NCBI GenBank assembly: GCA_015654595.1
Contig: JAATGQ010000041.1
Location: 124,001-188,000 of the forward strand
Reading direction: 5' to 3'
Length of the DNA stretch: 64,000 nucleotides
Source: Chitinophagales bacterium
GTDB lineage: Bacteria > Bacteroidota > Bacteroidia > Chitinophagales > Chitinophagaceae
Positions within the stretch are counted from its first letter, which is position 1. The number at the start of each line of letters is the position of its first letter. This document shows positions 4,854 to 41,396 of this stretch, piece by piece. Both the position numbers and the translations under genes were made by a program. The notes beneath the pieces are model-generated. The model had not been told where the DNA came from, did no database searches, and saw nothing but the letters and a program-made list of their open reading frames with translations.

Positions 4854-6377
4854 CTACTTCTGTAATTCGACAACCACCACCGACATCGGCGGCAGCTCAA
4901 CACTCAAGCCGGCACTGGTCTTCTTCGCACCATTGAACCCGGCAGTCTTCACCTTATCAGGCTGATCGAAAGTATTGATATCATTGAACTTCGAAGAGGT
5001 CAGGATCTGTCCATGAATAGTCGAGAATGCAATACCCGGAAGCGCCGCATTTATCGTGATCTTCTTCGAAGGATCGATGTTTACAAAAGAAATATGGATC
5101 GCCCCGCTGGAATCGCGCGAAGCGGAAGCATTCACCGCAGCGATCTTCTGACCGTCATGCACATATTGCGGGCTGGTAAAATGAACAGCCAGCGAATGGG
5201 CATCCTGATGCACCTTATACATATCGAAGATATAATAGGTAGGCGTCAGCAGCATCTTATCCTTATCGGTAAGGACCAACGCCTGCAACACATTCACGGT
5301 CTGTGCCAGATTGGCCATCTTCACACGATCGGTATGGTTATTAAAGATATTAAGCGTAGAGCCAGCGATCAGCGCATCCCGCAGGCTGTTTTGCTGATAG
5401 AGAAACCCAGGCTTTGAACCGGGTTCGGCATCCGTCCAGATACCCCATTCGTCAACGACAAGCGCCATCCGCTTCTTTGGATCGTACTTGTCCATGATCG
5501 CGGAATGCTTGCTCACGATCTCCTCCATCTTCAAACAGGAAACCATCGCCTTGAAATAGTCGTCTTCCCCAAACTGCGTCGCAGAACCTTTATGTTCCCA
5601 GGGGCCAGCCAGCGTATAATAGTGCATCGAGATCCCCCAGGTACGGTTGCGAACGATATTCTTCATCACCTTGTCCGTCCAGTTGTAGTCATCGCTGTTT
5701 GCGCCGCTGGCGATCAGCCGAAGCTGCGAACCGGGATAGTTCTTGCAAAACTCGGAGTAACGGTTATACTCACCCGCATAATACTCCGGCGTCATACTGC
5801 CGCCGCATCCCCAGCTTTCATTTCCAACACCCCAAAAGGAAACATTCCAGGGCTTCTCCCGCCCGTTCTTGCGACGCATATCCGCCAGCGTACTCTTGCC
5901 ATCAAAGTTGAGGTACTCCAGCCAGCTTTCCATTTCCTCCGGCGTCCCCGTGCCCACATTGCCGGCGATATAAGGCTGACACCCCAGCAGATCGCACAAC
6001 TCGAGAAATTCATGCGTCCCAAAACTATTGTCTTCTGTTACCATACCCCAGGTCGTATTCACCGTCTTCTTACGCTGATCACGCGGCCCGATAGCATCCC
6101 GCCAGTGATACTGATCGGCATAACAACCACCCGGCCAGCGCAATACCGGAACTTTTATTTTACGCAACGCCTCCACTACATCCATCCGCATACGATCACC
6201 CGTCCAAAACCCATCGTAGATACAACGCCCGAGGTCCTCGGAGAAATGCCCATAAACATTACGACTGATGACAGGCCCGGAAGTATCCTTGATGGAAAGT
6301 TCGATGGCTGTTTGTGAAAAGACTTGAATACCTGACAATAAAAAGAGAAAGACAAGAAAAGGCCAGCTGGATTTCAT
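4854..6377 (-). CDS. Secreted alpha-L-arabinofuranosidase, GH51
   Basis: Retaining glycoside hydrolase releasing terminal arabinofuranose from arabinan or arabinoxylan. The 507-residue protein begins with a signal peptide (hydrophobic LFLLSGIQVF, likely cleavage after FSQ). Family landmarks include YGHFSEDLGRCIYDG, VLRWPGGCYADQYHW, the acid/base glutamate in GVGNESWGCGG (E187) and the nucleophile in LVVDEWG (E310). Length is normal for GH51. It is followed by a strong terminator and lies downstream of a CBM6-bearing esterase on the same strand with a terminator between them, so the two are probably separate units that attack the same class of plant polysaccharide. Confidence 0.93.
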   Translation of the reverse strand: MKSSWPFLVFLFLLSGIQVFSQTAIELSIKDTSGPVISRNVYGHFSEDLGRCIYDGFWTGDRMRMDVVEALRKIKVPVLRWPGGCYADQYHWRDAIGPRDQRKKTVNTTWGMVTEDNSFGTHEFLELCDLLGCQPYIAGNVGTGTPEEMESWLEYLNFDGKSTLADMRRKNGREKPWNVSFWGVGNESWGCGGSMTPEYYAGEYNRYSEFCKNYPGSQLRLIASGANSDDYNWTDKVMKNIVRNRTWGISMHYYTLAGPWEHKGSATQFGEDDYFKAMVSCLKMEEIVSKHSAIMDKYDPKKRMALVVDEWGIWTDAEPGSKPGFLYQQNSLRDALIAGSTLNIFNNHTDRVKMANLAQTVNVLQALVLTDKDKMLLTPTYYIFDMYKVHQDAHSLAVHFTSPQYVHDGQKIAAVNASASRDSSGAIHISFVNIDPSKKITINAALPGIAFSTIHGQILTSSKFNDINTFDQPDKVKTAGFNGAKKTSAGLSVELPPMSVVVVELQK

Positions 6378-6452
6378 ATGCTTTAATCGTTTTGGTTTGA
6401 CACCCCTAAATTAATTGTTTTTTTGACAATTAAAAGGGACAAACAAAAAAAA

Positions 6453-6477
6453 GCGGCCCCCAGTCCATGGAGGCCGC
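6453..6477 (-). terminator. Intrinsic terminator of the CBM6 esterase gene
   Basis: GCGGCC and GGCCGC arms followed on the minus strand by a run of nine T, 17 bases past the esterase stop. Confidence 0.8.
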
Positions 6478-6493
6478 CTCTCGTCTCGGAAAT

Positions 6494-9271
6494 TTATTGT
6501 TTCACAATCTTCTTCACCGTACTCCAATTCCCAATCTGCATCCGCACAAAATACACCCCAGGCGCCAGTGTACTCGCATTTACATTCACCTGCAAAGCAC
6601 CCGCAGCCTTTGTAACTTCCTGCGTCTGACGGATCGCGCCAGTAACATCCAGCAGCTGCACCCGCAAGCTGCCCGCCTGCGCATTGCTCATCTGGATAGA
6701 GAAATTAGCCTTTACAGGATTGGGGTAGATCGTCAGATAATCCGCCCCTGTAATGGCAGCCTCAGCCGCATCAACCTCACCGCCGGCAGCCGTAGCGCTA
6801 ACCAGCCCATTGGTAACGGCAGACGCCGAGGCGGGAAGCGCAAAGGTCATATAGTGGAAGTTCCAGCCAACAGCCGAAGTAGACTTCACCTGCAAGGTCT
6901 GTACACCCGCACCCAGATTGGCGGTCGTAGTAACGGTCTGCCAGGACTGATAAGCCCCGGTGTTGGGCAGCAGCACATTAGCAACCACATAGCCATTCGA
7001 CAACAGCTGCAGCGAAGCATTATTATTAGGAGTCGCAACCCGGAAGCTCACGGTATAAACCCCGGCCTTGGTTACGTTTACGGTATAGTTCATCCAATCC
7101 CCGTCATCGATCCAACCCAGATCGGTACCGCCGCCCACGTCAGAAGTCGTCTCGGTACCCACACCAGTCATCAACACATAGCTGGGCGCCAGGATAGTGC
7201 CAGGAATCGATGGCGTAGACGAACTGCTTCCGGAAGACGCAGCAGCGAACTGTATCCAGTTGATGTTCCAATTCCCCGCCGCCACAGATTTTACGATAAG
7301 GGTCTGTGCACCCGCCGCCAGCGCAGCCGTAGCGGTAACGGTCTCCCAGGTTTGATAAGAACCGGAGGCAGGTACGGTAACGGTCGCCAAAGCTACACCC
7401 GAAGCATTCTGCAGCTGGATCTGTCCGCCAGCCGCTGATGCTGCCACACGAAAACTGACGGTATAGGAACCCGCCGTCGCCACATTTACGTTGTATTTCA
7501 TCCAGTCCCCGTTGTCGATCCAGCCCACATCATAACCGCCCCCGGCATCGAGGGTGTTTTCCTGCGCTACACCGCTCATCGAAGCATAGCCTTCGGCCTC
7601 GACGGCGCCAGGGATCGCGTAAGTCGTAACAGCAGCAGCAGGAGCCGCAGTAAAGGTCATATAGTTGAAGTTCCAGCCGGTAACGGTTGATTTTACCCGA
7701 AGGGTCTGCTGACCAGCAGGCAGAACGGCCTGCGTCGTAACGGTCTGCCAGGTCTGATATCCCCCTGTATTGGGCACATTTATCGTGCTAAGCACTACAC
7801 CCGCAGCATTCAGCAGCTGAAAGGAAACCCCGGTATTCGGAGAGGTTACACGCCAGCCAATATTATAGGTTCCAGCCGTCGCAACATTGATCCGGTAATC
7901 CATATAATCACCCGCGTCGATATAACCTACATCCTGGCCGCCGCCAGTGTCCCCGGTCGTCTCAGTCGCCACCCCACTCATAGCAGCATAGCTTTCGCCC
8001 TGCACAGTACCAGGAACGGCATAATAGGTCGGGGCAGCCGATACGACAGGCGTTGCAAACTGCAGCCAGTTGAAATTCCAGCCGGTACCCGTCGATTTGA
8101 TGGTCAGGGCCTGCTGACCCGCCGGCAAGGTCACCGTAGCAGTAACGGTCTGCCAGGCCTGATAACCTCCTGTATTGGGAACGCTGACAGTCGCCAGCAC
8201 AGCGCCTGAAGCATTGATTATCTGAAAAGCAGCTCCTGCATTAGGAGAAGCCACCCGAAAACTGGCCGTATAAGAACCCGCAGAGGCAACATTCAGAGAA
8301 TAAGTCATCCAGTCCCCGTTGTCGATCCAACCCACATCCTGGCCGCCGCCAGTGTCCCCGGTCGTCTCGAGCCCTACTCCGCTCATCGTGGAATAGCTTT
8401 CAGCCTGCACGGTACCCGGAACGGTATAATACGTCGCCGTAGGCGTAGCCGGCGAAGTCACCGAAGTAGCAGCCGTCGTATACTGCAATAACCATTGGTA
8501 GATATTCATTCCGTTGAGGGTATACGCGGGATCGTAGAACTGTTCCCAGCAGCAGTGACCACCCGCATAAGCGGTCGACAAGGCATAATTCGCCTTTATC
8601 GCATTGACATCCAATACAAGATTCAGGGTATTGGCGCCATGCACATCCGTAGCGGAACCGAATCCCCACAGCTGGACCTTGTTCTTTACGACCGTATCGG
8701 CATACTGTCCGCGATAGTAAGCATTCATCACCGCGCTCATCGGGACAAACGCAGGAATGGGATGCGTAGCAGCAACGGAAGCCCCCGAAGCCTGTATCTT
8801 GCCGACATACTCCAGTATCCCTTCCCCGCCCGCAGACAAACCAGTCAGGTACACGCGGGTCGGATCGACCCGGTAGGTCTTCAGCAGATACGTCAATACA
8901 TATTCCAGCTGCGGCGCCGTCGTTGAATAACCATACGCCGCCTGCGGAGAGACGACGATAAACTTATAGGACTTCTTGTCAACAGGATTGACAAAACTGG
9001 AAGGCCAGGAACCATGCGCAATGATATACGCCGGTCCGCCGGCATTGCTGTTGTTGTAGATCACAGAAGGGTCGGTAGTAGACCCCTCATCCACCCCGTG
9101 CAGAAACACGATGATCGGGTAAGTCCCCGACGTAGTGGAATAATCATCCGGTAAGTGAAGAATAGCGTTTTCTGTTCCACCCGCATTGTCTACGGGTACT
9201 TTGATAATGGTTTGATCACCCTGCCCAAAGCAGAAAGCAGGTAAGAGCAGCAGCAGTAGTAGGCGTTTCAT
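6494..9271 (-). CDS. Secreted esterase with four CBM6 modules and T9SS sorting domain
   Basis: A 925-residue modular enzyme. After a signal peptide (residues 1-16) comes an alpha/beta-hydrolase esterase domain to about 270, with IIVFLHG as oxyanion region and the nucleophile serine in LTGLSAGGEG (S146). Four consecutive CBM6 modules follow at about 285-405, 415-540, 547-672 and 685-808, each marked by a SYxxMSGV-like opening, GGGxDVGWIDxGDWM and a NFNWLQF-like end. The last 80 residues form a type A T9SS C-terminal signal (YPNPVKANFSI to the final KKIVKQ), so the enzyme is exported through type IX secretion to the cell surface. Feruloyl or acetyl-xylan esterase activity is likely from the company of CBM6 and GH51 but not proven by sequence. 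Confidence 0.88.
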   Translation of the reverse strand: MKRLLLLLLLPAFCFGQGDQTIIKVPVDNAGGTENAILHLPDDYSTTSGTYPIIVFLHGVDEGSTTDPSVIYNNSNAGGPAYIIAHGSWPSSFVNPVDKKSYKFIVVSPQAAYGYSTTAPQLEYVLTYLLKTYRVDPTRVYLTGLSAGGEGILEYVGKIQASGASVAATHPIPAFVPMSAVMNAYYRGQYADTVVKNKVQLWGFGSATDVHGANTLNLVLDVNAIKANYALSTAYAGGHCCWEQFYDPAYTLNGMNIYQWLLQYTTAATSVTSPATPTATYYTVPGTVQAESYSTMSGVGLETTGDTGGGQDVGWIDNGDWMTYSLNVASAGSYTASFRVASPNAGAAFQIINASGAVLATVSVPNTGGYQAWQTVTATVTLPAGQQALTIKSTGTGWNFNWLQFATPVVSAAPTYYAVPGTVQGESYAAMSGVATETTGDTGGGQDVGYIDAGDYMDYRINVATAGTYNIGWRVTSPNTGVSFQLLNAAGVVLSTINVPNTGGYQTWQTVTTQAVLPAGQQTLRVKSTVTGWNFNYMTFTAAPAAAVTTYAIPGAVEAEGYASMSGVAQENTLDAGGGYDVGWIDNGDWMKYNVNVATAGSYTVSFRVAASAAGGQIQLQNASGVALATVTVPASGSYQTWETVTATAALAAGAQTLIVKSVAAGNWNINWIQFAAASSGSSSSTPSIPGTILAPSYVLMTGVGTETTSDVGGGTDLGWIDDGDWMNYTVNVTKAGVYTVSFRVATPNNNASLQLLSNGYVVANVLLPNTGAYQSWQTVTTTANLGAGVQTLQVKSTSAVGWNFHYMTFALPASASAVTNGLVSATAAGGEVDAAEAAITGADYLTIYPNPVKANFSIQMSNAQAGSLRVQLLDVTGAIRQTQEVTKAAGALQVNVNASTLAPGVYFVRMQIGNWSTVKKIVKQ

Positions 9272-9814
9272 AATAGGCTTGATTGGATTTGAAGTGTGTA
9301 ATGTTTGTTCATTTTTATCGGTTGTTTAAGGTAGAGAAAAGGAACCCTGCCCAGCCGGTAGTCATTTTTCAGACATACCAGTACCGGTTGACAACTGCAC
9401 ACGCAGCCGCAGGAACGAAAGGAAAGGTTTCGCTAAACGGAATGGGCGAGAAAAGGGGTTAGGTTACGGCTGGCAATAACCGCTAGGACGTTTTTTCATT
9501 TGTGTTTTCTGTCAGCAAGGGAAATTGAGAAAGCAGAGCGTGTGGCCTTAAACCTTTGGACAAGAACAGGACGGTTTGTGAGATCCCGTTTTGATGAAGT
9601 TCATAAGCAGTCTTCTCTAATTTATCAGGCTTACCAGATTTAGCAACTTGGCATAATAACGAGCAAAAACCGTGCTAGTTGCGTGTTTCAGCAGTTTTTT
9701 TTCGCGGGTAACACTAAGTTAATCCCATCGGGCTATTCTGAGCCGCTAAAGCGTTTTGCACCCTAAAGAATACACTTAATTATGCTTTTTCCAGGCCCTT
9801 TTCCTTGGAAGTGA
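9272..9814. other. 540-base intergenic region with no recognised gene
   Basis: Lies between the start of the CBM6 esterase and the end of proA. It should carry the esterase promoter near its left end. No open frame with coding character, RNA family, terminator or repeat could be supported on either strand. Confidence 0.5.
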
Positions 9815-11059
9815 TCATTCTCTGACCTGGCCTTTCCCACGCACGATCCACTTCTCGGTCACCAGCTTCTCCAACGCAAAAGGCCCCCGCGCATGAAGTT
9901 TCTGCGTAGAAATGCCAATCTCCGCCCCAAGACCAAACTCCTCACCGTCTGTAAAGCGGGTTGACGCATTCGCATACACCGCCGCAGCATCCACCTCCAG
10001 CAGAAAACGCTCGCACTGCTGCTGATCACGAGACACAATAGCCTCGGAATGCCGCGTCGAATAACGCCGGATATGCTCCAGCGCCTCGTCGATCCCACCC
10101 ACCACTTTTACCGCACATTTCAAACTCAGGAACTCCCGGGCAAAATCGGAAGACTTCGCCTTTTTCAGATACGGGTACCCTTTCAGCAATCCGCCGGCAG
10201 CCGCATCAGCAAAGACCTCCACGCCAGATTTTTCCAGCGGCCCCTTCAGTTTTTTCAGAAAAGAAGACGCAACCGCCTTGTCTACCAACAAGGTATCCAT
10301 TGAATTACAGACAGATGGACGGGAAACCTTTGCATTCACCACAATGGCTACCGCCATATCCAGATCCGCCCCCTTCTCCACGTACACATGACACACGCCA
10401 GCCCCGGTCTCGATCACCGGCACCCGACTGTTCGCCCGCACATACTGGATCAGTGAATCTGAACCCCGGGGTATCAGCACATCCACATAACGGGTGGCCG
10501 TAAACAGTTCCTGCACGTTCTCGCGTTCTGCGGGCAATAGTGTCACACAGTTGGGGTCGATCCCGGAAACCTTCAGTACCTTATGAATAATGACCAACGC
10601 CGCCTTATTCGTTGCTAATGCCTCCTGACTCCCTTTTAGCAGACAACCATTACGGCTGCGCAGACAAAGGGCGGCAATATCGAACGTAACATTGGGTCTG
10701 GACTCGTAGATCGCACCAACCACACCAAGAGGCACCGCCCGCTTCTCAAGCTTCAGGCCATTAGGCAGCGTACGCTTTTCCAACAGCCGCCCCGAAGGAT
10801 CGGGCAGCCGGCTTACTTTCCGGATACTCTGAGCGATGGATTTTATCCGCTGAGGATTGAGCAGAAGCCTGTCGGTCCGGGGACTCGCCGGATCCTGCTT
10901 GCTCACATCGAGGGCATTAGCCTTCAGAAGAACGGCGCTGTCAGCTTCCAGTTCAGAAGCCAATAATTGAAGGGCTTTTTTTATCTGGCTGTCAGTGGCC
11001 TGCCTGAGCGCAATAGCCGCCTTCGCCGTTTTTATAATAAGAGGTTGAATAGACTTCAT
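9815..11059 (-). CDS. proA: Gamma-glutamyl phosphate reductase ProA
   Basis: NADPH-dependent reductase converting glutamyl-5-phosphate to glutamate semialdehyde, the second step of proline synthesis, in the cytoplasm. The 414-residue length is standard. Recognisable blocks include LGVVGAIYESRPNVT, LKGSQEALATN, IPRGSDSLIQYV, the catalytic cysteine in RPSVCNSMDTLL (C251) and FGLGAEIGISTQKLHARGP near the C-terminus. It is second in the proB-proA pair, 90 bases downstream of proB. The spacer contains a (TA)n tract. Nothing is missing from the active site. Confidence 0.97.
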   Translation of the reverse strand: MKSIQPLIIKTAKAAIALRQATDSQIKKALQLLASELEADSAVLLKANALDVSKQDPASPRTDRLLLNPQRIKSIAQSIRKVSRLPDPSGRLLEKRTLPNGLKLEKRAVPLGVVGAIYESRPNVTFDIAALCLRSRNGCLLKGSQEALATNKAALVIIHKVLKVSGIDPNCVTLLPAERENVQELFTATRYVDVLIPRGSDSLIQYVRANSRVPVIETGAGVCHVYVEKGADLDMAVAIVVNAKVSRPSVCNSMDTLLVDKAVASSFLKKLKGPLEKSGVEVFADAAAGGLLKGYPYLKKAKSSDFAREFLSLKCAVKVVGGIDEALEHIRRYSTRHSEAIVSRDQQQCERFLLEVDAAAVYANASTRFTDGEEFGLGAEIGISTQKLHARGPFALEKLVTEKWIVRGKGQVRE

Positions 11060-28423: not shown

Positions 28424-31096
28424 TTAATTTTTTTGATTATCTGCAGGCTCTTCGCCGGGATGATATTTCACATCGGCATTCTGCAGGACATCCTCCTTGT
28501 AGAAGTTGACATCCTTAAACCAGCCGCCAAGATAAAGCGTAGACTGATCGGTAAAATGCGGCGATCCAGGTCGGCTGCTTTCGCCGCCCGTCACGATCGT
28601 TTTAGCCTTTATTTTTTTGCCAAACTCGATAGCCGCTATAAAGCTGTTCCCGGAATAACCATACCGTTTCTTTGTGTCCGGCATCACCTTGCTGGCGTAA
28701 GAAGGCAGGGAGCCAAAAGCAGAAGAGGCCAGACCCGCAGGACGACTGAACTTGTCATCGTCATAACTCTCGGTGATCTTGCCGGTAAGCCGCTGATAAC
28801 GGTTGATCTCGCCCCATTCGACTTTCCAGTTGCCATAGCGTTCTTTCAGATAAGCAATCGTATTCAGCAGCTGCGTCGTGCGCTGAGCAGGAGTTGCATT
28901 ATTGATCTCGGCAGTAATATTGACGACCGCATTGGTGTAGTCCTCGGGCAAATGCGGTTTTGGCGCATATTGCGCCATCCTGGTCCCCCACTCCACGGCA
29001 AGGGTGGTAGCGACAGAATGCGTAGCCGCCCGGCGATCCCATTTCTGAAGAATGGAGATGGGTTCCTGCAGCACTCTTTTTACTGAATCGGAAGCAGACG
29101 CATAAGCCTCGAACAAAGGAGGCAGCAGCACGTCAAAAGCGCCCAGATACCGGTCATAGCCTTTTGTAATAAGACTGTCCAGCGTAAATTCGGAAGCGCC
29201 GCTCAAAAGATGAACGGCATTCAACGCACGGAAGTTCTCTCCATCGGGCGCCATATACGCCGCATATCTGGCGCGTTGAGGACTGCTGTTTCCACTACAG
29301 GTATAGGGCGTAGAGTTACAATTCTGTATCCAGCCCGTCGCCGGATTGTAAACATGCACCATCTCATCCAGTTCGTGTATACCCTTCCATTCGGTAGCAG
29401 CGATGGAACCATCTACAGGCAGCGACCAGTTATACGTCGTATCGCGCCTGGGAAGGAAGTTCCCATGCCAGTAAGCGATATTGCCCTGATCATCGGCATA
29501 CACGGTATTATTGGTGGTGTTGGCCCGGATGTCCATGGCCTTTTTATATTCGTCAAAAGTATTGGCCTTTGTGATCAGCCAGGCTTCCAGCAACGCATTC
29601 AGACTACGATTGTATTCTTTCAGGCTCAGCCATTTCCCGTCCCGGCCCGCCAATACGGGACCATGATGGGTATAAAGTCCGACGACGGATAAGGATTGTA
29701 ATTCATTGGAAGCAGGCGCTGTTGCCAGCCCCGGAGGAAAACTACCCGAACGATACGAGATGGTTAAAGGACGAGTCGTTACGTTTTTCGTGTGTCCCTC
29801 ATATTCATAAACCCACTTGTTTCCATCCTGCCGTACCTTTTCTTCGTAGACATCGGCGACATCCGCCGTACTCGATGTATGCATCCAGCCGCAATGAGCG
29901 TTAAACCCCTGATAAATGAAGAATTGCCCCCAGGTAACCGCCCCATAAGTATTCAACCCTTCTTCGCTGACCAGGTGAACTTCCAGACGAAAGTAAAAAG
30001 GAACATGCGGATTGATATACAGCTCCGGAGACTCCGACGCCGTCCTGAAACCCGCCAGCGCAAAACCATTGGACCCCGTCTCGCAGTCGTTGTCACCAAT
30101 GCCCGGTATCAGCGGCGCAGAACAATTCCCCGCCGGCGCATCGCCAGGTATGACGGGCGGAGCAGGCACATCGTCCAGATCCGGCTCAAGCTCCCGCTCT
30201 CCATCGAACCAAGGTCCACCCGCATCTCCGCCAAGCCTCTGCCCAGCCGCTGTTACACCCGACTTCTGTCCACCCCTGGAGGCGCCGCCGGCCGCTCCAC
30301 CCAAAGCCAGCCCGGTTGCCGATCCACCAGCCGTGGATCCACCGCCAGTTGCAGCGCCGCCGGCCGCTCCACCCAAAGGCAGCCCCGTCGACGAGCTGCC
30401 GCCGGAAGCCGCTCCACTATGCGCAACGGCATCCTCATCCGATCCGCCTGGCTTGATACCCCTGTCTTCCAGGATCATCAGCTCCACATCGGAAACCTGC
30501 GGCCGCTTACGCGGCTCCTTCTTTGCGATATATCCGGGATTCCTGCTGTAAAAGTCTTTTATCTCGTCGATCCGCAATCCACCCGTACTCGTGGCAGAAA
30601 CACTGCCATCGGTAAACATCAGCGCATACCAGGGCTGAAAATGGGTCAACGCCACCGGCTTTGTTTCGGGATGCTTATATAAGTAGTAATTGACGCCATC
30701 GGCAAAAGCATCGAGCAGCTTCCGCATCCACGCCGGACTCTTTCCATAGTCGGCAATAGCCTGCGTGCTGTCATAGATAAGCCGCATCATCACGTCGTTA
30801 TAGAGATAAGCATCTCCATACGCCTCCGACTGCCGGCCAAGCATTTCAAGGTAGTTCTTCTCCACCCGGCTGAAATCTTCACAACACTCGGTATACATCA
30901 ACCCGAATACCACATCGGCATCGGTCTTCCCATAAATGTGAGGAATCCCCCATTGGTCACGGATGATCGTTACTGCTTTGGCCTCATCTTCACAACGACG
31001 CTGATCGGAGACTGAAAGAGATTGCGACATCCCGCGAACCGAAATCACGAGCAAGGGGATCAATACCAGTGCCTCCCCTAGGTTCAGTTTTCTCAT
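28424..31096 (-). CDS. Penicillin acylase family (S45) N-terminal-nucleophile hydrolase
   Basis: Secreted Ntn-hydrolase of 890 residues that hydrolyses amide bonds of acylated small molecules such as homoserine lactones or beta-lactams. A signal peptide (about 1-24) precedes the alpha part (TIIRDQWGIPHIYGKTDADVVFGLMY, typical of S45). The self-cleavage site and nucleophile is the serine of TGSNGFALAG (S342), opening the beta part with FYFRLEVHL, YGAVTWGQ, PGFIAGHN-like FNAHCGWMHT and WKVEWGEINRYQRL. Odd: the spacer just before S342 contains about 80 residues (217-297) made mostly of Gly, Ala and Ser, with a GLxLGGAAGGA unit occurring twice. Since the spacer is removed on maturation, the insertion is probably harmless. 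Confidence 0.9.
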   Translation of the reverse strand: MRKLNLGEALVLIPLLVISVRGMSQSLSVSDQRRCEDEAKAVTIIRDQWGIPHIYGKTDADVVFGLMYTECCEDFSRVEKNYLEMLGRQSEAYGDAYLYNDVMMRLIYDSTQAIADYGKSPAWMRKLLDAFADGVNYYLYKHPETKPVALTHFQPWYALMFTDGSVSATSTGGLRIDEIKDFYSRNPGYIAKKEPRKRPQVSDVELMILEDRGIKPGGSDEDAVAHSGAASGGSSSTGLPLGGAAGGAATGGGSTAGGSATGLALGGAAGGASRGGQKSGVTAAGQRLGGDAGGPWFDGERELEPDLDDVPAPPVIPGDAPAGNCSAPLIPGIGDNDCETGSNGFALAGFRTASESPELYINPHVPFYFRLEVHLVSEEGLNTYGAVTWGQFFIYQGFNAHCGWMHTSSTADVADVYEEKVRQDGNKWVYEYEGHTKNVTTRPLTISYRSGSFPPGLATAPASNELQSLSVVGLYTHHGPVLAGRDGKWLSLKEYNRSLNALLEAWLITKANTFDEYKKAMDIRANTTNNTVYADDQGNIAYWHGNFLPRRDTTYNWSLPVDGSIAATEWKGIHELDEMVHVYNPATGWIQNCNSTPYTCSGNSSPQRARYAAYMAPDGENFRALNAVHLLSGASEFTLDSLITKGYDRYLGAFDVLLPPLFEAYASASDSVKRVLQEPISILQKWDRRAATHSVATTLAVEWGTRMAQYAPKPHLPEDYTNAVVNITAEINNATPAQRTTQLLNTIAYLKERYGNWKVEWGEINRYQRLTGKITESYDDDKFSRPAGLASSAFGSLPSYASKVMPDTKKRYGYSGNSFIAAIEFGKKIKAKTIVTGGESSRPGSPHFTDQSTLYLGGWFKDVNFYKEDVLQNADVKYHPGEEPADNQKN
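30206..30448 (-). repeat. GC-rich low-complexity tract with direct repeats inside the acylase spacer
   Basis: Coding DNA made of GGC/GCC-type codons. A run of about 22 bases beginning CGCCGCCGGCCGCTCCACCC occurs at about 30287 and again at about 30356, giving the repeated GGAAGGA peptide. Slippage at such repeats is the likely origin. Confidence 0.7.
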
Positions 31097-31153: not shown

Positions 31154-31411
31154 ATGTCTCACCCGCTAACGATATTTTCCGGCGCTGCCCGTTTGCCAGT
31201 CGCAAAACTGGTCGGCAACGACCTCAGCGATACCATCGACCCCATCGCCGTAGAGCAGGCCCTCGAGATCGTTCCCTACGCCATTCCCAGACAATGCGCC
31301 GCCACTTATTATCCGGAAACGAATGTGCTCGTGCCCATCGATGCCGTCGCCGCCAAAAGCAATACACCGGTCTCCAAAATGGTCATCGTCCATCTCTTAA
31401 AGACAAATTAA
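31154..31411 (+). pseudogene. Remnant of an FdhF/YdeP-type molybdopterin oxidoreductase C-terminus
   Basis: An 85-codon frame. Its second half, VPYAIPRQCAATYYPETNVLVPIDAVAAKSNTP then VSKMVIVHL (split here for length), matches the extreme C-terminus of FdhF/YdeP-family formate-dehydrogenase-like proteins, which are normally 700 or more residues long. The first half does not match convincingly. No upstream part of the enzyme is present in the 57 bases before it, so this is a truncated remnant rather than a gene with its usual function. A strong intrinsic terminator follows directly, as expected for the end of the original gene. A repurposed small protein is the alternative. Confidence 0.5.
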
Positions 31412-31504: not shown

Positions 31505-32077
31505 ATGTTAACGGAAGAATTGAAAGAAAGCACGGAAGCCGCTCACCACGCCTCCGAAAAGAAGATGATTGTTGCGCTCAAACAAATCGCGACAAAGGAA
31601 GACTATATCCGTATGCTCAACTGGCTTTACGGATTCTATGCACCCATGGAGGCACTTATCCGCCCCTATATGACGCCTGATGTCTTTCCCGATATGATAA
31701 AAAGATCCCGCGCAGAATACCTGCTCTGGGACATACAGGAAGCCGGCCTTCCTGCCATGGAACCAGACCCCTGTGAAGCGCTGCCCGTGATAGATTCCTT
31801 CCATCGCGCACTCGGCGCTTTTTATGTTATCGAAGGCAGCACGCTCGGCGGCAGGATTATCGCCGGCATGATCAGCCGTCAGCTCGGGTCATTAAAAAGC
31901 CTTTCCTTCTTCAACGGCTATGGCGCGGAAACAGGCAGTATGTGGCAATCCTTCAAGGATTTCCTAAACAGACCGTATACCATCGAACAACGTCACGAGA
32001 TCATCGCCGCCGCTGAAGACACTTTTATAACTTTTAAAAACTGGATCGACAAACATGAGCTCCAACCCCAATTATGA
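31505..32077 (+). CDS. bphO: Biliverdin-producing heme oxygenase BphO
   Basis: Bacteriophytochrome-associated heme oxygenase of 190 residues that opens heme to biliverdin IX-alpha, the phytochrome chromophore. The proximal heme histidine is in LKESTEAAHHASEK (H14, with H15 as alternative), and the distal helix with small glycines appears in FYVIEGSTLGGRIIAGMI near 120. Family length is normal. It is the first gene of the light-sensing operon and its 3' end overlaps the start of the phytochrome gene by 23 bases, so chromophore supply and apoprotein synthesis are directly linked. Confidence 0.92.
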   Translation: MLTEELKESTEAAHHASEKKMIVALKQIATKEDYIRMLNWLYGFYAPMEALIRPYMTPDVFPDMIKRSRAEYLLWDIQEAGLPAMEPDPCEALPVIDSFHRALGAFYVIEGSTLGGRIIAGMISRQLGSLKSLSFFNGYGAETGSMWQSFKDFLNRPYTIEQRHEIIAAAEDTFITFKNWIDKHELQPQL

Positions 32078-33569
32078 TTCGGAACTCTGTGGAAAGGTAC
32101 CCATCCATCTGATCAACACCGTACAGCCCTATGGAGTATTGCTCGTAATCGACAGGAATAGCCTGGAGGTCATCCAGGTCAGCGAAAACGTTGACGCGGT
32201 CTTTGAAGTAGGAGCAAAAGACCTGATACAACAGAATATAGGAGACTACCTCAATAAGACAGATCTGCATTTTCTGAAACACGTCGCTTCAGGCAAAAAC
32301 ACAGACAAGATCCCCCAGGTATGGACCATCCGGGGTAACAGATACCTCTGCCTGCTTCACGTTAAGGACAACCATATCCTGATAGAGATCGAACTGGAAT
32401 CTCACCGCGACGACACCCAACACAGCTTTATCAGTATCTACCAGGAGATAAAATACTCCATGGCCCTGATCGAAAAAGCGACTACGCCGACAGAGGTCTG
32501 CGGCATCGCCGCCCGCGAATTAAAACGCATCTCCGGCTTTGACAAGGTCATGGTCTACGGCTTCGACGAGGAATGGAACGGCACCGTCATCGCCGAAGAG
32601 ATGACGGAAGATATGGAATCCTACTTCGGCTTTACCTTCCCCGCCTCCGATATTCCGCGGCAGGCCCGGGAACTGTACCTTCGTAATCCCTATCGTTTTA
32701 TACCCGACAGGACCTATACACCCGTTAAGCTATACCCGGTCATCAATCCCACTACCTCTTCTTTTATCGATATGTCGGACTGTAATGTGAGGGGAGTAGT
32801 GGCGGTTCATCTGGAATACCTGGCCAATATGGGCGTGACGGCATCCATGTCGACCCGCATCCTGAATAATGACAAGCTCTGGGGACTGATCGCCTGTCAC
32901 CACAAGACGACCAAATCCATGCCCTTTGAACTTTGCTCCATCTTCGAACTGCTGTCCAACGTCATCTCGGCGCGGATGCACTCGCTGCAGAACAAGGAAA
33001 AACATGATGCGAAAACAGCGACACAGGAAGTGTACAACCGGCTTGTCGAGCAGATTTATTCCGCCGGCAATATTCAAACCGGCCTGCTCGATGGCGAAGC
33101 CACCGTCCTTCAAATCTTCCATGCCCAGGGCGTAGCGCTCGTCCGTCATGGACAGATCACCACAAAAGGAGAGGTCCCGGACCGGGATCAACTGGACGAA
33201 CTGCTGCTATGGCTGCATACCCGTCAATTGAATAAGCCCTACCATATCGACCATCTCTTTACTGAATTTGACCGTGCCGCCTCCTATATGGAACATGGCA
33301 GCGGTCTGCTGGCTATCCCCATATTCCCCGAACAGGAAGACTATGTACTGATCTTCCGCCCGGAAGTAAAAAAGACGATCGACTGGGGTGGAGACCCCGG
33401 CGGCCGCATCGTCTTTGAAAAAGACGGCCTCAATTATCATCCAAGACACTCCTTCAAATTATGGAGACAGATCGTCACCGGCACCTCCCTACCCTGGAAG
33501 GAAGAAGAAATTTCAATCGCCGAGACGTTGAGAAGTTTTTTATATGAGTACGCCAGTAAAAAAGTATAA
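32055..33569 (+). CDS. bphP: Bacteriophytochrome photosensory core (PAS-GAF-PHY) without output domain
   Basis: Red/far-red photoreceptor of 504 residues. The PAS domain holds the biliverdin-binding cysteine (C12 in SELCGKVPIHLINTVQPYG; note QPYG instead of the usual QPHG). The GAF domain (about 135-315) contains FPASDIPRQARELY with D199, the chromophore-contacting H252 in VAVHLEYLANMGV and H282 in LIACHH. The PHY domain has a complete tongue, with WGGDP near 444 and PRHSF at 463-467. The protein ends shortly after the last PHY helix, with no histidine kinase or other effector, and its last 26 bases overlap the CheB-CheR-kinase gene. The photosensor therefore must act in trans, presumably on that kinase. 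Photoreceptor identity is firm; the partner is inferred from gene overlap. Confidence 0.95.
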   Translation: MSSNPNYDSELCGKVPIHLINTVQPYGVLLVIDRNSLEVIQVSENVDAVFEVGAKDLIQQNIGDYLNKTDLHFLKHVASGKNTDKIPQVWTIRGNRYLCLLHVKDNHILIEIELESHRDDTQHSFISIYQEIKYSMALIEKATTPTEVCGIAARELKRISGFDKVMVYGFDEEWNGTVIAEEMTEDMESYFGFTFPASDIPRQARELYLRNPYRFIPDRTYTPVKLYPVINPTTSSFIDMSDCNVRGVVAVHLEYLANMGVTASMSTRILNNDKLWGLIACHHKTTKSMPFELCSIFELLSNVISARMHSLQNKEKHDAKTATQEVYNRLVEQIYSAGNIQTGLLDGEATVLQIFHAQGVALVRHGQITTKGEVPDRDQLDELLLWLHTRQLNKPYHIDHLFTEFDRAASYMEHGSGLLAIPIFPEQEDYVLIFRPEVKKTIDWGGDPGGRIVFEKDGLNYHPRHSFKLWRQIVTGTSLPWKEEEISIAETLRSFLYEYASKKV

Positions 33570-36500
33570 CAACCACTATATCGTAGCCATCGGAGCATCC
33601 GCGGGCGGCCTCGAAGCCATCCACGAGTTCTTCGACAGCATGCCCGATACTCAGAATTGCAGCTTTATCATCATCCAGCACCTCTCGCCGGATTATAAAA
33701 GCCTGCTGGTAGAACTCGTCGCCAGGCATACGGATATGAAGGTGTACGAAGCGACCGATCACCAGGAGATCGAGCGCAAATGTGTATACGTCATCCCCAA
33801 TACGAAGTTCATCACCGTTCAGAAGAATGAGTTGCGGCTGACAGAAAAAAAGGTTCTGAAAGTACCCAACAACGCCATCGACGTTTTTCTATACTCTCTC
33901 GCCAAAGAACGCAAGGACAAGGCCATCGCCATCATCCTCTCCGGCACAGGCACAGACGGAACAAAGGGAACGGAAGCCATCAAAAAGGAAGGCGGTATCG
34001 TACTCGTTCAGGATCCATCGACAGCCAAATTCGATGGCATGCCCAACAGCGTCATCGCCGCCGGCAACGCAGACTTTATCCTGCCGCCGGCCGCCATGTA
34101 CACGGAGATCATGCAGCATATCTCGCCACCCCCGGCCTACCTCTATGGCAACGACAAAAAAGACGAACAATTCCTGCAGACGGTCTTTCAGCTGATCCAG
34201 TCGGAATCGGGCATGGAATTTCGATATTATAAAACGCCGACCATCCTCAGACGCATCACCCGCAGGATGATGCAGGGCAACTTCAATAACCCCGACAAGT
34301 ATGTGGAATTCCTTAAAAACAATAAGGAAGAAGTCAGACAACTGGGCCAGGACTTCCTGATCGGCGTCACCCGCTTCTTCCGTGACAAGGAAGCCTTCGA
34401 TCTGCTAAAAGAAAATGTACTCCCGGATATCATCGAAGCAAAAGAAGATGACGACATCATAAAGATTTGGGTCACAGCCTGCAGCACTGGAGAAGAAGCC
34501 TATACCATCGCGATGGTGCTCGACGAGGTGCTGGAAAAGAGCACAAAAAATCTGACCGTAAAGATCTTTGCCTCCGACATAGACGGTGAAGCCATCCATT
34601 TCGCCTCCGTTGGCGAATACCCTTCCTCCATCGAAAAAGATATCGATCCCCAGCTCCTGCGAAAGTATTTTACCCGCGTGGGAAAGACCTATACGATCAT
34701 TCCACGCATCCGTAAACAGATCGTTTTCGCCCGGCACAACATCATAAAAGATCCTCCCTTCATAAAGAACGACCTGGTCAGCTGCCGGAATATGCTGATC
34801 TATATCAGCCCCGCATTGCAGCAACGCATCTTCTCACTGCTGCTTTTCGCGGCAGGCAAGGACGGCTATATCTTCCTCGGACCCAGCGAGAACTCGGCAC
34901 TGCTGAAAAAGGACGTAGAAGAGATCAGCAGCCGCTGGAAGATCTATAAGAAGACCGGCGAATCAAAACCCGGCTATTATTATCAACAGGGTATCCCGGA
35001 AGGCTATACCACCCGACAAGACAAAGGGATAAAACCCTCCGCACTGGCTAAAGACAGCAGATCGCAGTCTATTCTCTGGGAAGATTTCAAACAGGTCCTG
35101 GCCAACGACTTTGCCTACGTAGCTATCTATGTCGATCACAATTACGAGATCCGGGAGGTCATCGGGCAATACGAAAAATTTCTTACCCTTCCCCGCAAAC
35201 AGCTGCACCTGAACCTGCTCAGAATGGTGCCCTCGGGCATTTCTGTATTGCTCAGTGCAGAGATCCGAAAGGCAGAAAAGAACAGGGAAAAGATACACCT
35301 CCCCAACGTCCGCTACCGGAAAGACGAAGAACTGCTTTCCCTCGAGATCTTTATTCGCCCCGGCGGACAAGAACCGGGAAGCCCGCCTACAATGATCGTC
35401 TTTCGCGAGACGGCCGCCGCAGAAACGTCTGGCAACGGCGTCCACGAAAACCACCACCACGAAGAGGAATACGTACGGGCACTGGAAACGGAGCTGAATG
35501 AGACGAAAAGCCATCTGCAGCTGGCGATAGAAGACCTCGAAACAACCAACGAGGAACTACAGTCCACCAACGAAGAATTGCTCTCCGCCAACGAGGAATT
35601 GCAAAGCTCCAATGAGGAACTGCAATCCTTAAACGAAGAATTGATCACACTGAATACGGAACACCAGCTGAAGATAAAGGAGCTCCTCGAACTAAACGAC
35701 GACCTCAACAACTACTTCCGCAGCACCGATATCGCACAGGTCTTCCTCGACAACAATCTCCGTATCCGCAAGTTCAACCCGGCTTCGTCTAGGATGATCA
35801 ATTTCATCGACTCGGATACGGGCCGGCCGCTGACCCATATCTCCAATAATATCCGCTCCGAAACGCTGACACAGGACGTTCAATCTGTGCTGAAGACGGG
35901 AAAGCCAATGGAGAAGGAAGTCCAGCTGCTCAGCGGCAAAAACCTGCTGATGAGGGTCATGCCCTACCTGACCCACGACGGAAAAAACGACGGCGTCATC
36001 ATTGCCTTTGTAGACATAACGGCCATCACGGACCTGAACAATATCATCCGCGCCGTCTACAATTCAAGCCCCAGCGCCATCTTCGCCTTCCAGGCACAAC
36101 GCGATATTCAGAATCATATCGTGGATTTCTCCATACTGTCGGCCAACTACGCCGCCAATGCAATGGTCCAGAAATCCAACGAAGTCCTTCGCGGCTTCCA
36201 GCTCAAAAGGGATCTGCCCCTGCTGATGACCAACGACCTGATGAGTAAATACATGGACGTGGTCGCCAGCGGCAAGAATTACCACGGCCTGGTTCAATTC
36301 AAAGAGGAAAAGAAATGGTTCGAAGTCACCATCGTAAAAATGATGGACGGCTTCGTCGCCACGTTTACCAACGTATCGGAACGAAAACAGGCAGAAGAAA
36401 AACTTCGCACCAACTATATGGAGCTGATCGCAGCACGCGAAACGCTCAAAAAGCTGAATACGGAACTGGAAAACAAAGTACTGGAAAGAACACGCGCCCT

Positions 36501-37689
36501 CGCGCAGAGCGAAGAACGTTTCCGCCTCGTATCCCGCGTGACCAACGACGCGCTCTGGGACTGGGACTTTGTCAACAATATCGTATGGTGGGGCGACACT
36601 TTCTACAACCAGTTCGGTTATAAGACAACCAGCACCGCAATTGACCGTAACGGCTGGCTCGACAAGATCCACCCGTCCGATCGCGCAGGTACGGAAGCCA
36701 GCATCTTCGCCGCCATCAACTCTCATCAGACACAGTGGAGCCGCGAATACCGCTTCCGCAAAGAGAACGGGGAATACGCCCACGTCCTCGACAGAGGCTA
36801 TATCCTGCACGATGACTATGGCACCCCCTATCGGATGCTGGGCTCGATGCTGGATATCACGGAATTGAAACGCGCTGGGGAAGAAATTGCACGCGCCAAA
36901 GAAGAACTGGAGCAGAAGGTAGCAGAAAGAACTTTCCAACTTCAACAACTAAACGAAGCGCTCGAAACCAGTAACCACGATCTTCAACAGTTTGCCTCCA
37001 TCGCCAGTCACGACCTGCAGGAGCCTCTCCGGAAGATCCATATGTTCTCCAAACTCATACAGGATAAATATGGGGATACTATGCCCGAAGATATCCGGGC
37101 CTGGTTCAGTAAGATCAATCGCTCCACTGACCGTATGCGGGCATTGATCATCGACATCCTGAACTTCTCGAGACTATCGGCCGAAGTGTCTTACTTCCGC
37201 GAAACTGATGTTCAGACATTGTTTACCGACAGCCTCGAAGATTTTGAGGTAGCAATCCGGGAAAAACAAGCAGAAATCACCGCCAACTCCCTCCCTACCC
37301 TCGACCTTATTCAAGGACAATTCAGACAAGTCCTTCACAACCTGCTCAGCAACGCGTTGAAATTCAGCAGTCCTGGCGTGCCGCCCCGGATTCACTTGGA
37401 AGCCGTCCGCGTCCGGGACAGATCTTTCAATAGTCCCCAGGACGAAAATGGAAATTTTTATCGGTTCACACTAACTGATAATGGCATTGGTTTTGAGGCA
37501 AAGTTTGCCGAAGACGTTTTCAAACTGTTCCAGAGACTGCACTCGAAGGACCGGTACGAAGGCACGGGTATAGGACTTGCCATCACTAAAAAGATTATCG
37601 AGCGGCATAATGGAATCATCTCCGTTCACAGTGAAGAAGGAAAAGGAACCCGCTTCGATTGGATAATCCCCGTAACCCACCGATCTTAA
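33544..37689 (+). CDS. CheB-CheR-PAS hybrid sensor histidine kinase
   Basis: A 1381-residue signalling protein. CheB methylesterase at about 10-190 with intact triad S19 (IGASAGG), H46 (IIQHLSP) and D138 (SGTGTDG); CheR methyltransferase at about 210-480 with the SAM site WVTACSTGEEAYTIAMV near 308. A long coiled coil at about 640-720 is built of NEELQSxNEEL heptads. PAS domains follow at about 720-830, 845-960 and 990-1110, then a dimerisation domain with the phospho-accepting H1156 (ASHDLQEPLRKI) and an ATPase domain (N-box LLSNALKFS near 1265, DNGIGF, GTGIGLAI). No membrane segment is visible, so it is cytosolic. Its start overlaps the phytochrome gene by 26 bases and it is followed by a receiver. 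No chemoreceptor gene is near, so the substrate of CheB/CheR is unknown. Confidence 0.93.
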   Translation: MSTPVKKYNNHYIVAIGASAGGLEAIHEFFDSMPDTQNCSFIIIQHLSPDYKSLLVELVARHTDMKVYEATDHQEIERKCVYVIPNTKFITVQKNELRLTEKKVLKVPNNAIDVFLYSLAKERKDKAIAIILSGTGTDGTKGTEAIKKEGGIVLVQDPSTAKFDGMPNSVIAAGNADFILPPAAMYTEIMQHISPPPAYLYGNDKKDEQFLQTVFQLIQSESGMEFRYYKTPTILRRITRRMMQGNFNNPDKYVEFLKNNKEEVRQLGQDFLIGVTRFFRDKEAFDLLKENVLPDIIEAKEDDDIIKIWVTACSTGEEAYTIAMVLDEVLEKSTKNLTVKIFASDIDGEAIHFASVGEYPSSIEKDIDPQLLRKYFTRVGKTYTIIPRIRKQIVFARHNIIKDPPFIKNDLVSCRNMLIYISPALQQRIFSLLLFAAGKDGYIFLGPSENSALLKKDVEEISSRWKIYKKTGESKPGYYYQQGIPEGYTTRQDKGIKPSALAKDSRSQSILWEDFKQVLANDFAYVAIYVDHNYEIREVIGQYEKFLTLPRKQLHLNLLRMVPSGISVLLSAEIRKAEKNREKIHLPNVRYRKDEELLSLEIFIRPGGQEPGSPPTMIVFRETAAAETSGNGVHENHHHEEEYVRALETELNETKSHLQLAIEDLETTNEELQSTNEELLSANEELQSSNEELQSLNEELITLNTEHQLKIKELLELNDDLNNYFRSTDIAQVFLDNNLRIRKFNPASSRMINFIDSDTGRPLTHISNNIRSETLTQDVQSVLKTGKPMEKEVQLLSGKNLLMRVMPYLTHDGKNDGVIIAFVDITAITDLNNIIRAVYNSSPSAIFAFQAQRDIQNHIVDFSILSANYAANAMVQKSNEVLRGFQLKRDLPLLMTNDLMSKYMDVVASGKNYHGLVQFKEEKKWFEVTIVKMMDGFVATFTNVSERKQAEEKLRTNYMELIAARETLKKLNTELENKVLERTRALAQSEERFRLVSRVTNDALWDWDFVNNIVWWGDTFYNQFGYKTTSTAIDRNGWLDKIHPSDRAGTEASIFAAINSHQTQWSREYRFRKENGEYAHVLDRGYILHDDYGTPYRMLGSMLDITELKRAGEEIARAKEELEQKVAERTFQLQQLNEALETSNHDLQQFASIASHDLQEPLRKIHMFSKLIQDKYGDTMPEDIRAWFSKINRSTDRMRALIIDILNFSRLSAEVSYFRETDVQTLFTDSLEDFEVAIREKQAEITANSLPTLDLIQGQFRQVLHNLLSNALKFSSPGVPPRIHLEAVRVRDRSFNSPQDENGNFYRFTLTDNGIGFEAKFAEDVFKLFQRLHSKDRYEGTGIGLAITKKIIERHNGIISVHSEEGKGTRFDWIIPVTHRS

Positions 37690-37701
37690 AAACCAAGAAG
37701 T

Positions 37702-38097
37702 ATGGTGAAATACAAAAAAATAGTATTAGTAGATGACGACGCAGACGACCGTCAGATCTTTACTGAGATCATCAGGGAGATTGACGAGGAATCCGTCATT
37801 GAGACGGCCGAGAACGGATTGGAAATGGTTGCCATGCTGGATAAATTGCCGGAAGAAGAACTGCCCGATATGATCATCCTGGACCAGAATATGCCAAAGA
37901 TGACCGGCAAGGAAAGCCTTATTTATCTAAAGGAAAATCCCCGCTATCAACGTATCCCCGCCATCATCTATTCCACCTACCAGGTAAGAGATTTCTATAA
38001 GGAATGCCTTGAGCTTGGCGCACAGGACGTCGTCGCCAAACCCGACACCATACAGGCCTATCGCGAAATGATCGAACAGTTCCTGGTAGCGCACTGA
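37702..38097 (+). CDS. Stand-alone response regulator receiver
   Basis: A 131-residue CheY-like receiver. Acidic pocket is VDDDADD (residues 10-16), the phospho-acceptor is D61 in IILDQNMPKMTG, the switch Ser/Thr is in IIYSTYQ and the conserved lysine is in VVAKPD. There is no DNA-binding or enzymatic output domain. It begins 12 bases after the kinase gene and ends the phytochrome operon. This type of receiver (Rcp1-like) is often the phosphate acceptor of phytochrome kinases, so it is the likely end of this relay. Confidence 0.93.
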   Translation: MVKYKKIVLVDDDADDRQIFTEIIREIDEESVIETAENGLEMVAMLDKLPEEELPDMIILDQNMPKMTGKESLIYLKENPRYQRIPAIIYSTYQVRDFYKECLELGAQDVVAKPDTIQAYREMIEQFLVAH

Positions 38098-40499: not shown

Positions 40500-41396
40500 T
40501 TACTTTTTCGTCACTTCCACCTGCCAGTCCCCGCCGCTGGCCACTTTATAAGTCGCCGCAAAATCGCCCTGGTTCAACGCAAAAGAAACTTGTAAAAGAC
40601 TATTAAGATACGCAAGCGGCTTTCCTACAGCAACGGCGCCAAAAGTAGAAACATAAGGCATTTCGCCGGAATATACCGTTTTACCCTGATGCAGGATCTT
40701 TATCCGGAGTACATCTCCAAAAGTGACATGCAGCTGCTGGAAGAGCTCGCCAGGAATATTCGTCCATACATTGCCGTACTGTACATCCAGGACCGGGATC
40801 GTGCCAACCAGCTCCGCACCATGCAGCTCAGCCTTCTGATAAGGGATCGACACCACTTCCTGTTTTGGCAGCAAGGGCCCAACCTCTTCAAACCGGATCA
40901 CGCCGGCAGCCAGCCTTGCAGCGGTATAGGAATACACATCCCGCCCATGAAAAGTATAGGAAGCCTTCGAATCCTTACGGCGATTCAAACGCTCATCGAT
41001 CTCCCTTATCCCGGCAATTCCCTGCGATTCGGCAACCAGTGTCAGCGTGCCATTATCAGGCGTTACGATAAATTGCCCCGTCTTTGTCAATAATACCACC
41101 GACTTACGCGAAGTGCCCACTCCCGGATCGACGACGGAAACGAAGACCGTTCCCTGCGGCCAGTAAGGAACGGTTTGCTGAAGCCGGTAAGCCGCATCCC
41201 AGATATTATAAGCCGGGATCTCATGCGTCAGGTCGAATAACTTCAGATCGGCAGAAACACCCATAGCCACACCCTTCATCTCGGATACTGCGCCATCTTT
41301 TAAACCAAAATCGGATTGATAAACGACCATCTTGTTTTGCGCCGTTGCTACGGCCATCATCGACAGGGCAGCGAGAGAAAGGATCAGCGATTTCAT
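40500..41396 (-). CDS. Exported SAM hydroxide adenosyltransferase (DUF62)
   Basis: A 298-residue relative of fluorinase/chlorinase that hydrolyses S-adenosylmethionine to adenosine and methionine with an activated water. Active-site blocks are intact: YQSDFGLKDGAVSEMKG, VVDPGVGTSRKSV (D90, R97), TPDNGTLT, and YTFHGRDVYSYTAARLA (H150). Odd: a clean signal peptide (LILSLAALSMMAVATAQ) predicts export to the periplasm, where SAM is not expected to be available. Its start overlaps the stop of the AI-2E-type permease gene by four bases, so the two are coupled and the permease might supply or remove its substrate or product. Confidence 0.88.
   Translation of the reverse strand: MKSLILSLAALSMMAVATAQNKMVVYQSDFGLKDGAVSEMKGVAMGVSADLKLFDLTHEIPAYNIWDAAYRLQQTVPYWPQGTVFVSVVDPGVGTSRKSVVLLTKTGQFIVTPDNGTLTLVAESQGIAGIREIDERLNRRKDSKASYTFHGRDVYSYTAARLAAGVIRFEEVGPLLPKQEVVSIPYQKAELHGAELVGTIPVLDVQYGNVWTNIPGELFQQLHVTFGDVLRIKILHQGKTVYSGEMPYVSTFGAVAVGKPLAYLNSLLQVSFALNQGDFAATYKVASGGDWQVEVTKK

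Follow-up and report, generated by a model that had tools for sequence, protein, structure and literature searches.

How does a phytochrome that stops short of a kinase hand on its signal? This question is raised by four genes in a 64,000-nucleotide stretch of DNA from a Chitinophagales bacterium (GenBank assembly GCA_015654595.1, contig JAATGQ010000041.1, positions 124,001 to 188,000 of the forward strand), which we call the window. They encode a BphO-like heme oxygenase, a bacteriophytochrome (BphP), a large protein that joins CheB and CheR to a histidine kinase, and a single-domain receiver (Table 1). Open reading frame (ORF) coordinates and Pfam domains agree with the original prediction for these genes: bphO and bphP overlap by 23 bases, bphP and the kinase gene by 26, and 12 bases separate the kinase and receiver genes. 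Our analysis suggests that the kinase-less phytochrome and its CheB-CheR-PAS-kinase neighbour probably form a split light-sensing histidine kinase. The original prediction had proposed that light gates methylation; what survives of it is the split phytochrome, its steady kinase neighbour and the failure to find a chemoreceptor substrate, but not the methylation enzymes as the output.

Pfam assigns residues 12-113 of BphP to PAS_2, 146-305 to GAF and 325-501 to PHY, and finds neither HisKA nor HATPase. The protein ends 25 residues past a PWKEEE motif, the point at which fused relatives continue into a kinase, and it matches 505 of the 622 positions of the NCBIfam equivalog model bacphytchrmBphP, scoring 308.6 bits against a cut-off of 1040. 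Thus, the photosensor stops after the PHY domain, as had been read from the sequence. The photosensory part itself has everything expected of a bacteriophytochrome: the PAS-GAF-PHY order, an N-terminal Cys, a D-I-P motif, two pocket His and a PRxSF tongue; the HisKA-HATPase that would make it a bacteriophytochrome histidine kinase is missing from the chain. The best 60 of 104 solved chains in the PDB that it matches are mostly phytochromes, and the top one is named FiDCB. Residues C12, D199, P201, H252, Y255 and H282, together with the tested tongue residues, including the P, R, S and F of PRxSF, are identical in all 30 phytochromes (the window's included) whose gene adjoins a CheB-CheR kinase gene, which we call linked. 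Hence the chromophore residues singled out by the original prediction, and the tested residues of its tongue, are not only present but invariant. Two further positions vary, I200 being Val in 3 of the 30 and H283 being Asn in one. A truncation peculiar to the window's genome was ruled out, since kinase-less forms of 497-558 residues occur at 29 of the 66 places at which PHY was found in the family.

These 66 places lie in 60 of the 394 genomes of the window's family that were covered by the profile search. The 65 loci besides the window's were retrieved and their ORFs called with a longest-ORF script, so single gaps between genes may be off (the overlap in L031, called as 143 bases, is really about 20). 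The other 37 phytochromes bear a kinase. A CheB-CheR-PAS-kinase gene directly follows the phytochrome gene at 27 of the 29 kinase-less places, in contrast to none of the 37 kinase-bearing ones (Fisher p 1.7e-16, a guide only because the genomes are related), and the 27 pairs are spread over 11 genera by handle number. These counts rule out chance gene order, and on this comparison the pairing is beyond chance. Outside the family, 40 of 395 genomes in a phylum-wide draw had PHY (38 over the cut-off), as did 31 of 395 in an overlapping class-wide draw; the only kinase-less PHY frames over the cut-off came from G646 and G1082, which belong to another family, and in each genome a CheB-CheR kinase gene directly follows the kinase-less phytochrome gene. 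Weak PHY fragments below the cut-off were seen in G626 and G762. A scan of a public genome collection, which reaches close relatives only, returned a single one, the metagenome-assembled genome (MAG) SZAS-43 (L031), with all four genes and a phytochrome 67% identical to the window's; a scan of viral contigs gave no match.

In all, the pair is found in 12 genera by handle number and the MAG, always in the same order; according to the longest-ORF calls, the two genes either overlap or are separated by no more than 60 bases. The companionship between BphP and the CheB-CheR kinase, and the recurrence of the gene order in other Bacteroidota, are therefore borne out for the pair, and for all four genes in SZAS-43. 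The window's own assembly (6.03 Mb, 265 contigs, 87% complete) has a single PHY domain in a profile search of its contigs, and none was found in nine other sampled genomes of its genus; thus, the cassette is patchy. At a separate locus of the set, L169 (G564), a receiver gene is flanked in tandem by two kinase-bearing phytochromes.

The partner is built like a CheB-CheR fusion kinase: a single chain combines CheB, CheR and HisKA-HATPase and has the expected active-site residues. Its CheB lacks the receiver domain of ordinary CheB. The first 535 residues found a match in 170 of the 394 family genomes at E 1e-20, so such proteins are common there, mostly not adjoining a phytochrome; the search scored about three candidates per genome among the matches listed, so that unlinked members of the clade described next may be undercounted. 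In a tree of the CheB-CheR core from 70 chosen proteins, all 30 BphP-linked kinases fall into one clade of 34 (support 100/98); an earlier tree had placed 28 linked kinases in a clade of 32 (100/100). By gene order and trees, then, there is a phytochrome lineage without its own kinase and an old, repeated pairing of it with one CheB-CheR-PAS-kinase subfamily. Throughout this clade CheB Ser19, His46 and Asp138 and CheR Arg280, Asn416 and Tyr420 are identical in all 34 members, while at the position of CheR Glu317 four members have Gln and the other 30 have Glu; we take these residues to have the functional roles of the two active sites, which the original prediction correctly called intact. The kinase residues His1156, Asn1270, Asp1312 and Gly1342 are likewise invariant in 34 of 34. 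Two of the three PAS domains that had been claimed are firm by Pfam, whereas the middle one is marginal, reaching 20.0 bits for PAS_8 under a cut-off of 21.8.

Which part of this protein would be the output? Relatives that do without CheB-CheR point to the kinase. The phytochrome tree has one clade of 33 (100/100), in which 28 linked phytochromes are joined by two more without a kinase, L040 and L066, and by the kinase-bearing L033, L044 and L073. These last three are nested in the kinase-less lineage at 99/95 to 100/96 and so appear to have regained a kinase. In L033 and L044 the phytochrome continues straight into PAS-HisKA-HATPase; over about 390 residues these tails match the last PAS and the kinase of the clade proteins best, and, each other aside, their best 12 listed matches are clade kinases (at most 48% and 46% identity). 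The L073 tail is a HisKA-HATPase whose best 13 listed matches are clade members, over the kinase alone. The L066 phytochrome adjoins a separate PAS-kinase of 795 residues that resembles the rear of the clade proteins without CheB or CheR. Kinase-end trees place the fused tails, as well as the protein next to the L066 phytochrome, with the clade and sister CheB-CheR kinases (95; 97/69), apart from canonical phytochrome kinases; the 97/69 tree omits 27 BphP kinases and 6 others of 111 segments, and 4 of the 34 clade members have no usable segment. All four loci (L033, L044, L073 and L066) thus have a kinase, with CheB, CheR and the Glu-Glu helix described below absent. Of the two, it is the kinase that is kept more constantly as an output, and CheB-CheR would then serve for tuning. 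On these gene contents, CheB-CheR can be spared at the four loci, and the kinase, rather than methylation as such, is likely to be the light output. A light-gated methylesterase/methyltransferase as the output, as originally proposed, is accordingly not supported as stated, because four phytochromes of the lineage keep a kinase without CheB-CheR at the locus.

Several observations weigh against a split kinase. Four clade members (L127, L128, L129 and L130) have no adjoining BphP, only 15 of the 30 linked loci have a receiver gene directly downstream, and one kinase-less phytochrome (L040; G108, 6045-7541) has no kinase in the 14 kb retrieved. A second type of kinase core occurs in five of the 34 clade members (L037, L056, L128, L167 and L173), with CheB, CheR and the Glu helix unchanged, so that one and the same kinase interface is not conserved throughout the clade. 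The kinase-end trees do not separate the clade from its sister kinases, so that the case for the fused kinases descending from the clade proper is one of BLAST ranking. Further CheB-CheR matches lie elsewhere in three genomes with fused phytochromes (G068, G223 and G267). Finally, heme oxygenase and receiver genes are still present at L127, with no BphP remnant at E 1.

The four unlinked members are nested in the clade, the pattern that loss of the phytochrome would give. A topology with only the linked kinases monophyletic was rejected (p-AU 5e-41), as expected with BphP loss in four members. From its gene content, L127 has probably lost its sensor in nature and retained the remaining genes. 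In L130 a single 36-residue phytochrome match at E 0.75 was taken as chance.

Two observations on these loci stand on their own: at L127 (G330, 5205-11045) receiver, heme oxygenase and clade kinase lie together with the phytochrome gone, and the L040 phytochrome keeps the tested chromophore residues and has no adjoining heme oxygenase either.

The unpaired genes could mean that the two proteins are only co-expressed, the phytochrome signalling to another kinase or target and the CheB-CheR kinase sensing something else through its PAS domains, which could bind other signals. We consider this unlikely given a pair that keeps its order and close spacing across genera, and given natural fusions of the phytochrome to a like kinase. 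The heme oxygenase gene, which is the immediate upstream neighbour, in the same orientation, at 22 of the 30 linked loci and remains in L127 without BphP, would suit a different idea, in which light plays no role and the phytochrome is decaying or senses only its chromophore (for biliverdin or heme breakdown). Identity of the tested chromophore and tongue residues in 30 of 30 is unlike a decaying protein, and we regard this idea as very improbable. We therefore retain the split light-sensing kinase as the probable arrangement.

If the kinase is the output, what would CheB and CheR act on? In ordinary chemotaxis adaptation this would be a methyl-accepting chemotaxis protein (MCP) working with CheW, and profile searches of the window's genome (87% complete) found no MCP signalling domain and no CheW; no separate search for CheA was made. 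Among 28 genomes of relatives with kinase-less phytochromes, one (G288) had an MCP over the cut-off. A further 80 genomes gave MCP matches in five, of which one (G253) was over the cut-off; these 80 were G646, G1082 and 78 of the 170 with CheB-CheR matches, most of the 78 being among the more complete assemblies. Overall, MCPs over the cut-off occur in 2 of 109 genomes tested, and none was found in 30 of the 31 tested genomes with a kinase-less phytochrome; CheW was over the cut-off in one of these 31 (G288), with a weak match below it in G039. In an early census (PMC1183210), four Bacteroidetes genomes were likewise reported to be without MCPs. A CheB-CheR unit serving local chemoreceptors was rejected, as MCP and CheW are absent from the window's genome and rare in relatives. 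That no chemoreceptor lies nearby thus extends from the locus, where it had been predicted, to the genome. The original prediction would have been undermined by CheB-CheR homologues living mostly without BphP and with chemoreceptors of their own; we found the first in the family, from the 170 genomes with matches, but not the second, as the homologues are mostly without chemoreceptors too, and the subfamily itself is BphP-linked in 30 of 34.

The kinase protein contains a candidate substrate of its own. Five NEEL heptads place Glu-Glu pairs at residues 670/671, 677/678, 684/685, 691/692 and 698/699, seven residues apart, and all ten Glu are present in 34 of 34 clade members. The coiled coil from residue 669 is the most conserved 40-residue stretch in the clade (mean identity 0.98; best elsewhere 0.86). 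AlphaFold gave a poor model of residues 1-735 (two sequences, mean pLDDT 42.9), in which the 10-residue blocks above pLDDT 70 belong to residues 251-260 and to a predicted single helix at 639-727 (57-86 by blocks) that contains the heptads. All 34 clade members, and 35 of 36 other CheB-CheR proteins, have runs of at least three Glu-Glu pairs spaced seven residues apart, in contrast to none of 225 other ORFs longer than 500 residues in these loci, 57 of them kinases. Among the 36 other proteins, seven of the ten Glu are kept throughout, two more are kept in 35 proteins, and the one at 671 in 30; mean identity is 0.99 and 0.97 at the two Glu positions and 0.65 and 0.42 at the core positions. In the clade the Glu are invariant and the core positions average 0.98 and 0.81. 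In an ordinary coiled coil, core positions are expected to be the best kept.

Two findings count against this helix as an MCP-like part of a light sensor: it also occurs in CheB-CheR proteins without BphP and so is not phytochrome-specific, and the full MCP methylation consensus was found in only 4 of 34 clade members and 0 of 36 others. In sequence, its likeness to MCP sites is confined to Glu-Glu pairs at seven-residue spacing followed by small residues. Even so, MCP-free genomes, kept CheB and CheR residues, the invariant Glu and the precedent of RsbM/RsbK (see below) make methylation of the helix in cis our best guess, and we put it forward tentatively, as a substrate more apt to be wrong than right. 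A separate substrate protein, as originally envisaged, is then not needed, since a candidate lies within the kinase itself. Because the Glu-Glu runs are found in 35 of 36 CheB-CheR proteins outside the clade, self-methylation would be a general role of this widespread fusion.

The same residues invite another view, that the phytochrome gates CheB and CheR directly, for example by replacing the missing CheB receiver, so that a separate protein is methylated according to light and the kinase is secondary. It would fit the constancy of CheB and CheR residues apart from Glu317, the lack of the usual CheB receiver with the BphP gene just ahead, the scarcity of MCPs, and a clade with two types of kinase core but one of CheB-CheR. 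The kinase kept by four phytochromes of the lineage without CheB-CheR at the locus, and the conserved candidate substrate in the same protein, speak on the other side, and we judge direct gating improbable.

For the split kinase, we infer from sequence both the light coupling and the self-methylation, as follows. BphO would make biliverdin, which would be bound at Cys12 of the phytochrome. Red/far-red switching would alter the PHY tongue and the exit helix, and the phytochrome, docking on its partner in trans, would change the PAS-HisKA-HATPase end. Light-dependent autophosphorylation would then take place at His1156, with transfer to Asp61 of the lone receiver, the likely phosphoacceptor by reading of its sequence. 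Less surely, CheR and CheB may methylate and demethylate the Glu-Glu heptads of their own protein, much as on a chemoreceptor except that they would act in cis, and kinase gain would be adjusted in this way. Taken together, a light-sensing kinase with built-in adaptation, in which the phytochrome acts in trans, CheR and CheB methylate and demethylate their own helix and no chemoreceptor takes part, is a possibility we think less likely than not.

Table 1. Features at the phytochrome-kinase locus, in window coordinates; residue numbers are those of the kinase protein.
Feature	Coordinates	Strand	Length	Support
BphO-like heme oxygenase	31505..32077	+	190 aa	Pfam PF01126, E 1.9e-13
Kinase-less bacteriophytochrome (BphP), PAS-GAF-PHY	32055..33569	+	504 aa	Pfam
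CheB-CheR-coiled-coil-PAS-PAS-PAS-HisKA-HATPase kinase	33544..37689	+	1381 aa	Pfam
CheB methylesterase domain, residues 14-189	33583..34110	+		Pfam PF01339, E 4.8e-53
CheR methyltransferase domains, residues 212-465	34177..34938	+		Pfam PF03705 (CheR_N), PF01739 (CheR)
Five NEEL heptads, residues 669-700; proposed in-cis methylation helix	35548..35643	+		
Three PAS domains (middle one marginal), residues 721-826, ~834-960, 1014-1101	35704..36846	+		Pfam PAS_10, PAS_8, PAS_3
HisKA (His1156) and HATPase_c core	36982..37677	+		Pfam PF00512, PF02518
Single-domain receiver	37702..38097	+	131 aa	Pfam PF00072, E 1.7e-19
Short ORF just upstream of bphO	31156-31407	+		No Pfam match

Around the locus, the short ORF just upstream of bphO recalls, by eye, the tail of a molybdopterin oxidoreductase and is perhaps a remnant. 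Further upstream, 28424-31096 on the minus strand encodes a penicillin-amidase family protein (Pfam) with what looks by eye like a long, repetitive Gly/Ser/Ala-rich insert, and downstream, 40500-41396 on the minus strand encodes SAM hydroxide adenosyltransferase domains (Pfam PF01887, PF20257) behind a signal-peptide-like start, also seen by eye. BphO itself has weak PDB matches, to HemO (1j77, E 4e-6) and pa-HO (1sk7, E 8e-6).

CheB-CheR kinases have other neighbourhoods as well. Next to sister kinases of about 1200 residues, a receiver gene on the opposite strand adjoins in 10 of 12 loci (L131-L135, L137-L139, L141 and L142, with L137 and L138 cut by contig ends); by gene order, this is a second conserved arrangement, without a phytochrome. 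On plasmids, 726 records match residues 1-735 and 176 cover at least 80%; no phytochrome was annotated beside the plasmid kinase in the two neighbourhoods read (Azospirillum and Deinococcus).

Phytochromes have mostly been studied as one-piece sensor-kinases. With split and re-fused natural forms, the point at which light would enter the kinase becomes testable, as the two can be compared directly. Many of the sampled chemoreceptor-free bacteria have CheB-CheR kinases, and a putatively light-switchable subfamily with a candidate helix makes the question of their substrate testable too. If the helix is indeed methylated, this would be a self-adapting kinase and possibly an optogenetic part.

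The components belong to known kinds, namely phytochromes, CheB-CheR kinases and lone receivers; the dedicated split pair appears new, as searches of open-licence PMC papers turned up no account of a phytochrome and a CheB-CheR kinase forming such a pair. Bacteriophytochrome histidine kinases that work with a lone receiver are known from Deinococcus BphP-BphR and Cph1-Rcp1. The locus shares with them the PAS-GAF-PHY part with its Cys, His and PRxSF, the heme oxygenase beside it and the single-domain receiver, but here the kinase belongs to a second protein, one that also has CheB-CheR, PAS domains and a long helix rich in Glu. With CheB-CheR fusion kinases in general (annotated as chemotaxis protein CheB or CheR family methyltransferase) it has in common CheB, CheR, the NEEL-type helix, PAS and HisKA-HATPase; here, one subfamily is tied to a phytochrome. 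A link between a phytochrome-type photoreceptor and chemotaxis proteins has a parallel in Ppr of Rhodocista centenaria, which is reported to have its own kinase and to bind CheW (PMC2993699), whereas our phytochrome has no kinase of its own and CheW and MCPs were not found in the window's genome. A precedent for the proposed adaptation is in Bacillus cereus, where RsbM is reported to methylate the signalling helix of RsbK, a histidine kinase that is not a chemoreceptor (PMC4574943). As described there, RsbM is encoded apart from the kinase and has no methylesterase partner; here, the kinase carries both CheR and CheB and would methylate itself, with a phytochrome as its neighbour.

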